A program made the position numbers and the translations under genes. From positions 1 to 33,519 of the IMG/VR virus record IMGVR_UViG_3300025543_000111: a stretch of DNA of 33,519 nucleotides, one strand, 5' to 3'. The stretch is from a virus. Positions 2,082 to 17,102 of this stretch are shown here, piece by piece (position 1 is the first letter of the stretch; every line of letters begins with the position of its first letter). The notes under the pieces are model-generated. The model did not search any database and had not been told where the DNA came from. It worked only from the letters and a program-made list of their open reading frames with translations.

Positions 2082-3731
2082 ATGATACACCACATGAACA
2101 AGCTGCGAAAGCAGGACTTATCTCAAGAGTTTGCTTGTCTTAACACACTGCAACACACACCGTGGCAGATCAACCAGCCTGTGTTAAGCATTGTTAGACA
2201 GGTGTGGGATAGTGGACAGGAGTGGGCAGGTCTACCAGCTAGGACAGACAGACCACTACTAGCCTACCCATTCAGCAAGGAACCAGCAGAGATGAACGAT
2301 GCTGAACGTGCAGAGTTTAAGAACTGGTCAAGGAAGCGTAACGAAACCTATGCCTACAACAACAAGACAGTAAGCAAGCGCATCCAGATTGAGCGTACAC
2401 TACAGACAGCAGAACGATACGCAAGGTATGATGAGTTCTACTATGTATGGCAGAATGATTTCAGGTCACGCAAGTATGCTAACAGTACGTTCATGTCACC
2501 TCAGTCTGCTGATTGGAGCAAGGGACTGTTGACATTCAAGCGAGGCAAGGCTATCAACAACTGGCATGACGCACGTTGGTTGTGTATCCATGGTGCTAAC
2601 CTGTATGGTAACGACAAGATCACACTAGACCAGCGCGAGGGCTGGGCGTGGGACAATGCAGATGAAGTCAAACGTGTAGCAGATAACCCATATGATAATA
2701 CATGGTGGCTGGACGCTGACAAGCCATGGCAATTCCTTGGCTGGTGTATAGAGTTTGCTGGCCTAGTCAAGCAGGGCTGGGGGTATGTGTCACACCTGCC
2801 TACGTCTGCTGATGGTAGCTGCAATGGACTGCAACACCTGTCTGCTATCCTTCAGGATGCTAAGGGTGGTAAGGCTACCAACCTGATACCTGCTGACCTG
2901 CCTCAAGATATCTATACTGAGGTAGCAGAGGGAGCATCACAGTCTATTGGTAGGCTGGCTAATGAGGGTGACATTTTAGCCAAAAAAATTATGGAGTTTG
3001 GTATCAATCGCACACTCACCAAAAGACCAGTGATGATTGTCCCATACTCAGGCACACTACACGCATGTAAGGGCTACATCCATGAGGCTATACAGGATAG
3101 GGTAGAGAAGGGAGAGCCTAACATCTTTGGTGATGACATGTTCAAGGCTAGTGTCATGCTGTCTATCCATGTATGGGATGCTATCAATGGTGTCATTGAG
3201 TCAGCAAGGCAGGTGATGGACTACGTTAAGGATGTTGGTGCTGTCTATGCACAACACAACAAGCACATGCAGTGGGTCACACCTACTAACTGGCTGGTCA
3301 TGCAGAACTACCATGACGTAGACAAGAAGCGTATCAAGACACACATCAATGGCAACCTGTTGCAGTTAGTATTCAACAGTGACGTTGAGAACACAGTGAG
3401 TAAGAAGCGTACTGCATCAGGGGCTAGCCCTAACTTCATACACTCTATGGATGCAGCAGCTATGACTAAGACTATCAACAGTAGTAAGAGGGAAGGCATC
3501 AATGACTTTGCCATGGTGCATGACAGCTACGGCACACACAGTACTGACATGCCACGCCTGTCTCAGATACTACGCGAAGAGTTTGTAAAGATGTATACAG
3601 AACATGATGTGTTGACAGAGTTAAGACAACATGCTACTGTTGTACTAGGTACTGAAGATGTACCGCAACCACCAGCGAAGGGTACGCTAGACCTGAATAA
3701 GATACTGAACTCACAGTACTTTTTCGCATAG
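2082..3731 (+). CDS. T7-type RNA polymerase, catalytic part (second of two frames)
   Basis: 549 residues matching the C-terminal two thirds of single-subunit phage RNA polymerases. Visible landmarks: DFRSR near residue 130 (T7 DWRGR), the ADGSCNGLQH motif with catalytic Asp244 (T7 Asp537), RTLTKRPVM with Lys314 and Tyr322 (T7 Lys631, Tyr639), ASPNFIHSMD, and VHDSYGT with catalytic Asp481 (T7 Asp812). It ends in YFFA, like the FAFA end of T7. Together with the upstream frame it gives about 806 residues, against 883 in T7, with no residues missing at the join. All catalytic residues are present, so the enzyme is probably active and transcribes the middle and late genes. Confidence 0.9.
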   Translation: MIHHMNKLRKQDLSQEFACLNTLQHTPWQINQPVLSIVRQVWDSGQEWAGLPARTDRPLLAYPFSKEPAEMNDAERAEFKNWSRKRNETYAYNNKTVSKRIQIERTLQTAERYARYDEFYYVWQNDFRSRKYANSTFMSPQSADWSKGLLTFKRGKAINNWHDARWLCIHGANLYGNDKITLDQREGWAWDNADEVKRVADNPYDNTWWLDADKPWQFLGWCIEFAGLVKQGWGYVSHLPTSADGSCNGLQHLSAILQDAKGGKATNLIPADLPQDIYTEVAEGASQSIGRLANEGDILAKKIMEFGINRTLTKRPVMIVPYSGTLHACKGYIHEAIQDRVEKGEPNIFGDDMFKASVMLSIHVWDAINGVIESARQVMDYVKDVGAVYAQHNKHMQWVTPTNWLVMQNYHDVDKKRIKTHINGNLLQLVFNSDVENTVSKKRTASGASPNFIHSMDAAAMTKTINSSKREGINDFAMVHDSYGTHSTDMPRLSQILREEFVKMYTEHDVLTELRQHATVVLGTEDVPQPPAKGTLDLNKILNSQYFFA

Positions 3732-14901: not shown

Positions 14902-15663
14902 ATGGCAGACAGTATTAACACTTATCAAGAAGAACCTGCTGAGTCACAAGAGCATGTAGATGCTATGCTGGCGAAAGTAGAAGGTAGTCAACAAGACCCT
15001 GAACGTCCTGAGTGGCTACCTGAAAAGTTTAATTCAATTGAGGATATGGCTAAGGCATACTCTGCATTAGAGAGTAAGCTAGGCCAGCCTCAACAGGAAA
15101 AACAAGAGGCAGTTTCAGAAGAACAGGCAGCAGAAGCTACACCTTCTGACATTGCTGATGCACTAGATGCAAACGGCCTAGACTTTGATGCGTTCCAGCA
15201 GGAATACGAAGAGCTAGGCGGACTAACTGAAGATGCCTACGCAGCACTAGCTGAGGCTGGTTTCTCACAGGCAGTAGTTGACTCATGGATTGACGGACAG
15301 AACGCTTTGTCTGAACAAGTCCAGTCTAGTATGTACAACCTAGTAGGTGGTGCAGAACAGTATCAAGGACTCGTACAGTGGGCAGCAGATAATCTACCCG
15401 CTGACGAGATTGATGCGTTTAACTCAACAATGGGATCGCGCGACACTAACATGATTAAGTTGGCGATCCAAGGTCTTAATGCTCGTTATCGTTCTGAGGC
15501 AGAGCCTAGTCTCCTTAGGGGACAGACAGGTTCTGTGTCCTCTGGCGGGAAGTTTGATAGCAATGCAGAATTAACTGCTGCTATGCGTGACCCCAGATAC
15601 GACAAAGACCCCGCCTACAGACAGCAGGTTGCTGATAAGCTAGCCAAGTCTAGTCTGTTCTAA
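14902..15663 (+). CDS. capsid assembly scaffolding protein (T7 gp9-like)
   Basis: 253 residues, acidic and rich in Gln, Glu and Ala, mostly helical. The N-terminal RPEWLPEKFNSIEDMAKAY, continuing into ALESKLG, is characteristic of podovirus scaffold proteins. It guides capsid assembly and then leaves the prohead. The C-terminal region (ELTAAMRDPRYDKDPAYRQQ, then KLAKSSLF) is the likely capsid-binding end. It lies between portal and capsid as in T7. A structured non-coding leader follows it. Confidence 0.9.
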   Translation: MADSINTYQEEPAESQEHVDAMLAKVEGSQQDPERPEWLPEKFNSIEDMAKAYSALESKLGQPQQEKQEAVSEEQAAEATPSDIADALDANGLDFDAFQQEYEELGGLTEDAYAALAEAGFSQAVVDSWIDGQNALSEQVQSSMYNLVGGAEQYQGLVQWAADNLPADEIDAFNSTMGSRDTNMIKLAIQGLNARYRSEAEPSLLRGQTGSVSSGGKFDSNAELTAAMRDPRYDKDPAYRQQVADKLAKSSLF

Positions 15664-15680: not shown

Positions 15681-15711
15681 GGGGGATTGTATAAGAGTCC
15701 CCCTTCCTTCT
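15681..15711 (+). terminator. terminator-like hairpin after the scaffold gene
   Basis: GGGGGATT (15681-15688) pairs with AGTCCCCC (15696-15703) with one T-G wobble, a 7-base loop, then a pyrimidine tail TTCCTTCT. The tail is not a pure T-run, so termination may be partial. The tail bases are also the left arm of the long-range stem beginning at 15704, so the two structures may influence each other. Confidence 0.5.
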
Positions 15712-15850
15712 AAATACACGAATACACCACCGAAGTTACGTCATACGTGCAGAAGATTCGCTACCTTAGGACGTTATATACGGCTGCTTGGGCAGGTGTC
15801 AGGCTAGGAAACAGGTAATGCTGTCCTAGCCCTTGTGTATTTAGAAGGGA
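15704..15850 (+). ncRNA. candidate structured RNA domain in the capsid leader
   Basis: Bases 15704-15721 pair with 15833-15850 as an 18-pair stem with two G-T wobbles and a 14-pair perfect core (15706-15719 with 15835-15848). Inside, GGCTAGG (15802-15808) pairs with CCTAGCC (15825-15831), topped by ACAG/CTGT, and ACACC (15724-15728) can pair with GGTGT (15795-15799). This is more pairing than expected by chance and suggests a folded RNA: an RNase III processing site, a stability element, or a riboswitch-like structure. It is not a tRNA. No known RNA family was recognised. Confidence 0.5.
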
Positions 15851-15937
15851 TCACATCCCTAACACGAAGCTAAACATAACAAACGATTACCCCTGACCCC
15901 TTGCGAGGGACAATCTTGGAGAAAGGATGTAGTGTAA

Positions 15938-15986: not shown

Positions 15987-17102
15987 ATGGCACAAGCTGC
16001 TTCAAATCCGGCCTATAGCGTAAGCTTCCAAGGCCAAAATAACCTAACAGGTGACGTTCGTGACCTGTTCCTCAAGCTGTATGCTGGCGAAGTCCTAACA
16101 GCCTATGAGGAAAAGAAAGTCCTTATGGATAAAGTGCGTACTCGCACAATCTCAAAAGGTAAGTCTGCTTCATTCCCAATGACAGGCCGTGCAACTGCTG
16201 AGTACTTGACCCCCGGAAATGAGATCACAGGTGGCTCAATCCGTGCAGGTGAGCGTATCGTCACAATTGATGACTTGCTTATCTCAAGCCAGTTCATTGC
16301 TAACATTGATGAAGCTATCAACCACTATGATGTACGTTCAATCTACTCAAAGGAAGCTGGTATTGCACTAGCTAACGAAGCAGATCGGAACGTAGCTCGT
16401 ATGCTTGTTAAAGCTGCACTGTCAACTAATGCGACAGCCGCTGCTGGTCTTATCCAAAACTACAAAGACTTTGCTGAAGAAGACTTCACTTCTAATGTCA
16501 ACATTGGTACAGCTACTGCTGACTCTCTTGATCCTGCAAAGCTAGCTAAAGCTGTCTTTGATGCCAAGAAAACCATGGACATTGCTAACGTACCATCAGA
16601 CAACGCTGTAGTTGTCCTTCCGCCAGCACAGTACTATGCACTGATGGATGTAACTGATGGATCAAAGCTGACATACATGAACCAAGACTTTGGTGGTAAC
16701 GGTTCAATTGCTTCAGGTATGGTTCCGTCAATTGCAGGTATTCCTGTAATCATGTCAAACCATGCTGACGTTACTAATCTGTACAAGAGTCTTGTCACTG
16801 CTAACGCAAACGAAGGTGAGACTATTGACAACCAGCCACTAGCAAACACTGCTGGTTCAGGCCGCACTACTCACTATGACCTTCCAACTACTAACGTAGA
16901 CGGACGCGACATGGTTGCAGAAGCTGCTAAGTTCCGTGGCTTTGTCTTCACACCAGAAGCTGTTGCTACTGTCAAGTTGCTTGACTTGGGCATGGAGTCT
17001 GAGTACCAGATCAACCGTCAAGGCACACTCATGGTTGCTAAGTACGCAATGGGCCATAACGTCCTGCGTCCTGCATCATGTATCGGTCTTGTAGAGGTCT
17101 AA
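15987..17102 (+). CDS. major capsid protein (T7 gp10-like)
   Basis: 371 residues (T7 gp10A is 345). It forms the icosahedral shell. The N-terminus includes a GDVRDLFLKLYAGEVLTAYE segment, then FPMTGRATAEYLTPG and ITIDDLLISSQFIANIDE-type sequence, all typical of T7-like capsids; the later part has VVVLPPAQYYALMD. A strong ribosome binding site (AAGGAG) precedes the ATG. It has its own structured leader and is followed within eight bases by a strong terminator. There is no sign of a T7-type 10A/10B frameshift extension: the terminator begins eight bases after the stop. Confidence 0.95.
   Translation: MAQAASNPAYSVSFQGQNNLTGDVRDLFLKLYAGEVLTAYEEKKVLMDKVRTRTISKGKSASFPMTGRATAEYLTPGNEITGGSIRAGERIVTIDDLLISSQFIANIDEAINHYDVRSIYSKEAGIALANEADRNVARMLVKAALSTNATAAAGLIQNYKDFAEEDFTSNVNIGTATADSLDPAKLAKAVFDAKKTMDIANVPSDNAVVVLPPAQYYALMDVTDGSKLTYMNQDFGGNGSIASGMVPSIAGIPVIMSNHADVTNLYKSLVTANANEGETIDNQPLANTAGSGRTTHYDLPTTNVDGRDMVAEAAKFRGFVFTPEAVATVKLLDLGMESEYQINRQGTLMVAKYAMGHNVLRPASCIGLVEV

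Follow-up and report, generated by a model that had tools for sequence, protein, structure and literature searches.

PeSL, which PMC4177764 cites, are mobile regulatory cassettes of T4-type phages: structured and intergenic, they lie at varying positions in the genome, contain promoters and are present repeatedly in one genome. The element analyzed here is likewise a structured intergenic cassette found at varying positions in phage genomes, but it nearly always occupies a single site in a given record, and its transcript strand showed no sigma-70-type promoter. It also resembles the c4 RNA of phages P1 and P7 (described in PMC12197685) and the plasmid RNA CopA, which are small structured RNAs encoded by mobile elements with complementary sequence in their loops. 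Those RNAs target an mRNA or a plasmid RNA, whereas the present element is complementary to 23S rRNA; a 2025 review of phage small RNAs (PMC12197685) makes no mention of rRNA. Separate rRNA-antisense segments, some of them over H69, are found in the C/D box and H/ACA guide RNAs of archaea and eukaryotes, and one C/D snoRNA is known from Epstein-Barr virus (PMC2718842). Unlike the C/D box guides, the present element has no box C (RUGAUGA) or box D (CUGA) that could be noticed by eye. Bacteria are not known to have the C/D or H/ACA guide machinery. Finally, synthetic PNAs have been directed against H69 and H68, in the same part of 23S rRNA; they are man-made, 10-14 bases long and unstructured, unlike the present element. 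Oligomers antisense to these two helices inhibit both the growth of E. coli and translation in vitro, which indicates that the target site is reachable and that pairing there is inhibitory (PMC7038079, PMC9040758).

The window, i.e. the whole stretch of 33,519 nucleotides under analysis, is a fragment of a T7-like phage carrying genes for RNA polymerase, primase-helicase, DNA polymerase, ribonucleotide reductase, head-tail adaptor, scaffold and capsid, read on the plus strand. Among the best matches listed for its capsid in cultured phages, identity does not exceed 44%. The T7-type RNA polymerase is represented by two adjacent ORFs (1289-2080 and 2082-3731), which match consecutive stretches of one PHROG profile (phrog_414: 5-266 and 272-816), with GGGGATAAGATG at their junction; either the polymerase really has two parts, or the gene is broken or wrongly assembled. 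A long stem lies in the spacer between the scaffold gene (14902-15663) and the capsid gene (15987-17102), the latter having its own AAGGAG. At 15885-15925, ACCCCTGACCCCTTGCGAGGGACAATCT, with a small CCCU/AGGG hairpin inside, is near-invariant across the capsid leaders of all relatives and present in a single copy in the window. The conserved downstream CCCTTGCGAGGGACAAT was considered as a recurring phage promoter and rejected because it occurs only once in the window. The features of the spacer are given below; E. coli 23S positions were converted from Salmonella 23S positions with an offset of 41 and are approximate.

15681-15703, plus strand: terminator-like hairpin immediately 5' of the element, kept in relatives; context, outside the element
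15704-15721, plus strand: outer stem, 5' arm, 18 pairs; fold prediction, compensatory changes in relatives
15722-15832, plus strand: inner domain (type I element), present in about 1/7 of related T7-like loci and absent from the rest
15724-15728, plus strand: inner closing helix, 5' arm ACACC; predicted fold, CACC/GGUG invariant in 15 homologues
15735-15751, plus strand: S4, GUUACGUCAUACGUGCA, antisense to 23S at about 1963-1979; 15/17 in the window, 17/17 in L213 (against SAR86)
15757-15772, plus strand: S1, UUCGCUACCUUAGGAC, antisense to 23S at about 1922-1937, 16/16
15773-15787, plus strand: S2/S3, GUUAUAUACGGCUGC, antisense with gaps to H69 and its 5' neighbour (about 1903-1920); small CGU/ACG hairpin
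15790-15801, plus strand: S5, GGGCAGGUGUCA, antisense to 23S at about 1827-1838, 11/12; suggestive only
15795-15799, plus strand: inner closing helix, 3' arm GGUGU; predicted fold, CACC/GGUG invariant in 15 homologues
15802-15831, plus strand: apical hairpin GGCUAGGA..UCCUAGCC, variable and covarying
15833-15850, plus strand: outer stem, 3' arm, 18 pairs; fold prediction, compensatory changes in relatives

The sequence-only reading had proposed here a structured RNA of no known family, closed by an 18-pair stem with 14 pairs in a row and enclosing a hairpin and a possible short helix. The computed fold bears this out. Both the MFE and the centroid structure of 15704-15850 join 15704-15721 to 15833-15850 by 18 uninterrupted pairs, G-U counted, so that the figure of 14 was conservative. 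The MFE is -58.9 kcal/mol, compared to a mean of -36.0 for 200 dinucleotide shuffles, none of which did as well (0/200, z -6.79). The inner helix (15724-15728 with 15795-15799) and the hairpin within 15802-15831 (arms 15802-15809 and 15824-15831) are both present in the predicted fold. Among 15 homologues the outer stem and the apical hairpin covary through compensatory changes, and the CACC/GGUG helix shows no sequence change, i.e. it is conserved without covariation; over the type I alignment, compensatory changes are found at 9 of 39 pairs. No Rfam 15 family reached the gathering threshold in the window or in the type I and type II loci (type II is described below), a permissive Rfam search gave chance-level matches only (one for the window at E<=5), and ARAGORN gave no tRNA or tmRNA match. 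These negatives led us to reject a known riboswitch, ribozyme, tRNA or tmRNA and, together with the covariation in both architectures, agree with the assignment to no known family.

The scaffold-capsid spacers of over 100 relatives, taken from IMG/VR, were compared. The spacer measures mostly 190-215 nt without the inner domain and about 320 nt with it. The domain is present in 16 scored loci, the window included, and absent in 101, both counts containing duplicate pieces of the same contigs. In 15 distinct domain-less spacers a short hairpin, CCTTCTAA...TTAGAAGG or variants, occupies the same place; in the alignment, a comparable hairpin can be seen at most of the other domain-less loci; L037 has lost it. 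The long stem is thus this short hairpin with a domain of about 110 nt in its loop. The domain is gained or lost quickly, since L002 carries it and L001 and L003 do not, although their capsids are 95-96% identical. Four relatives (L019, L021, L023 and L026) have another insert of about 60 nt, with its own hairpin (CCTTACA..TGTAGGG), just 3' of the short hairpin; because this second insert is at nearly the same spot, the spacer seems to take different RNA cassettes.

The core of the inner domain is almost certainly a condensed antisense copy of domain IV of bacterial 23S rRNA (H67-H71), with H69 and the linker CUAAGGUAGCGAA at its centre. A blastn search of 15722-15833 against 5,426 E. coli genomes (E<=10) hit 23S rRNA genes only, in antisense. 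In the phage collection, annotated matches were mostly 23S, in rRNA-holding records; among named or cultured phages and plasmids no element was found, the matches being 23S-bearing records or one chance match. Against the complete Salmonella 23S, 15757-15772 of the window is antisense at 16/16 positions (1978-1963). The second segment is antisense at 16/16 positions in L213 (2019-2004), where the window matches 15/17; in L213 this segment is also antisense to the SAR86 23S at 17/17. The segments at about 1963-1979 and 1903-1937 and the weaker one at 1827-1838 (E. coli numbering) keep collinearity with 23S while skipping H68 and H71. Between them they span H67, H69 and the linker from H69 to H71, on the face of the 50S subunit turned towards 30S. 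An rRNA gene or contamination was rejected: the rRNA-like sequence is not continuous, its segments being separated by large deletions and lying inside phage contigs.

This complementarity exceeds that of the controls. In local alignments with five 23S rRNAs from different phyla, antisense scores of type I were 24.6-34.0, compared to at most 22.7 for dinucleotide shuffles and at most 16.9 for the sense strand. Duplex energies with 23S, compared to the best of 500 shuffles, were -39.5 against -21.9 kcal/mol for S1, -24.7 against -20.3 kcal/mol for S4 of the window, and -30.0 against -19.2 kcal/mol for S4 of L213; the first loop of type II gave -29.3 against -24.0 kcal/mol. Covariance models of type I and of type II each found, weakly, the antisense strand of 5/5 23S at this site. 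In the predicted fold S1 is partly masked (mean unpaired 0.62) and S4 has a value of 0.37. A one-base deletion relative to 23S (GAC-GUUA) is common to all members; this deletion and the drift of S4 to 15/17 in the window indicate that perfect complementarity is not kept.

Comparison of elements and their surroundings shows that three or more phage groups unrelated to one another carry related elements, in two architectures. The family was found by scans with exact core anchors, the 16-base core serving as search anchor, so that the invariance of CUACCUUAGGACGUUA is partly imposed. Beside the T7-like phages, type I elements are found in SU10-like phages, right after the terminase gene in L145 and L148, where portal and capsid match SU10 families, and in another spacer in L146. 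Type II, which consists of three hairpins, is represented by at least 53 distinct sequences in dozens of phage contigs of up to 288 kb. The loop of its hairpin 1, CUACCUUAGGACGUUAU(n)CGUUAC, is complementary to 23S 1910-1933 except for one bulged G and the variable position. That variable position faces U1915, which in E. coli is m3-pseudouridine; we take this as suggestive only. Loop 2 (GGCUGCU) and loop 3 (AGUCGUGC) are like S3 and S4 of type I, in permuted order; loop 1 alone is significant by itself against 23S, loops 2 and 3 are not. Two conserved type II stretches are without a sure partner: AGUCGUGC in the third loop (alignment columns 72-79) and GUGAGC in the 3' tail, the latter having also served to delimit the set. 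Compensatory changes occur at 14 of 18 type II pairs, with pairing in 96% of cells; a covariation score of 0.481 compares to 0.138 when shuffled, and covariation is abolished when partner columns are slid. The type II covariance model recovers type I elements weakly. On the minus strand of L277 (4114-4147), a loop-1-like S1 hairpin is found by itself with a different partner, followed by an unrelated strong hairpin; this is a possible third architecture. Outside phages, one pattern searched for bacterial homologues gave unrelated chance matches only, and the type II model found nothing in 399 genomes of one phylum, a search without positive control.

The direction of the substitutions identifies the strand that folds. 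Single-sided pair changes amount to 100 G-U versus 4 A-C in type II (the misaligned pair 8/36 being left out) and to 59 G-U versus 4 A-C in the type I inner domain. Such an excess of G-U on the transcript strand shows that this strand, which also bears the 23S complement, is the one that folds, and that the rRNA-like minus strand is not. The element was found at a single site in 15 of the 16 records searched, which led us to reject a repeated mobile cassette; the sixteenth, G013, holds one extra one-mismatch match on the other strand. At 76 of 78 sites the nearest long ORF upstream lies on the same strand; the nearest one downstream is an opposite-strand ORF at 12 of 77. The genes adjoining the elements belong to many different families. 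A nearly single-copy RNA placed after varied genes points to action in trans. Beside type II elements of large aquatic phage contigs (e.g. L216, L228, L221 and L273), several genes have a host-type metabolic look: IscU/IscA-like, glutamine amidotransferase, TerC-like, isocitrate lyase-like and PstS-like, the amidotransferase alone being Pfam-confirmed.

We give an even chance to the interpretation that the element is a trans-acting phage non-coding RNA, housed in the loop of an intergenic hairpin that predates it, whose own loops would pair with H69-H71 of 50S subunits that are free or still maturing. The RNA would be carried on phage transcripts or cut from them; RNase III would be suited by the outer stem in the T7-like phages. 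Through its open loops the RNA would pair with H69-H71 on the 30S-facing surface and interfere with the joining of subunits or the maturation of 50S, which would restrict translation in the host or the synthesis of ribosomes; alternatively, 50S subunits may be tethered to phage RNA. A point against trans action is that the phage itself needs ribosomes. The sequence-only reading had presented the element as a capsid-leader feature that could set the processing, stability or read-through of capsid mRNA. As the main role this is not supported, and the feature is not confined to the capsid leader: the inner domain is absent from most close relatives, which retain just the short outer hairpin, it adjoins unrelated genes in other phages, with the next gene sometimes on the opposite strand, and what is conserved in its core is the complement of 23S rRNA. 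The outer hairpin by itself could still have a role in mRNA processing. More generally, the elements may act in cis on the processing, stability or next-gene translation start of their own transcript, perhaps by recruiting 50S subunits in the manner of an internal ribosome entry. Their location in spacers, for type II often 10-20 nt 5' of the next start codon, and the resemblance of the outer stem, kept in relatives, to a processing hairpin speak for this. We consider it rather improbable, given the wide differences between neighbour genes, the varying distances, the opposite-strand downstream ORFs, the fact that most capsid loci do without the element, and the capsid gene's own AAGGAG.

The likeness to 23S might also be ancestry only, the element being a structured RNA derived from an inverted rDNA capture and now working by its own fold through protein or ligand binding. 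The one-base deletion common to all members, the drift of S4 in the window group, and the strong conservation of loops and tail (AGUCGUGC, GUGAGC) outside the clear 23S match are what such a relic could leave; nevertheless, conservation is highest in the 23S-complementary stretch, for both architectures as well as for L277, and the segment order differs in type II. We regard this reading as unlikely. Since the minus strand is 23S sense over three segments, it could in principle act as a domain IV mimic, a decoy for ribosomal proteins or rRNA-acting enzymes. This is very improbable, because what is G-U on the plus strand would turn into A-C mismatches if the minus strand were the one to fold, and the gene set is on the plus strand. 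A DNA-level site, such as a homing endonuclease target in 23S genes, is suggested by the overlap of the core with the well-known I-CeuI recognition region. RNA-type covariation with G-U pairs makes such a site, and plain rRNA contamination with it, scarcely credible; moreover, only separated segments are present, lacking H68 and H71, among phage genes and in many contigs.

Returning to the trans-acting RNA, we propose, tentatively and at slightly less than even confidence, that a previously undescribed phage RNA family, found in T7-like and SU10-like phages as well as in very large ones, pairs with H69-H71 of host 23S rRNA and thereby controls or seizes ribosomes. In the open-access literature searched we found no phage RNA directed against 23S and no natural phage RNA base-pairing with bacterial rRNA. 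If the proposal is true, the compact and conserved RNA described here would constitute a new RNA family and a natural antisense RNA against the rRNA of bacteria, would reveal a new route of host takeover through the intersubunit bridge region, and would offer a natural scaffold against a site already targeted by synthetic antisense compounds.
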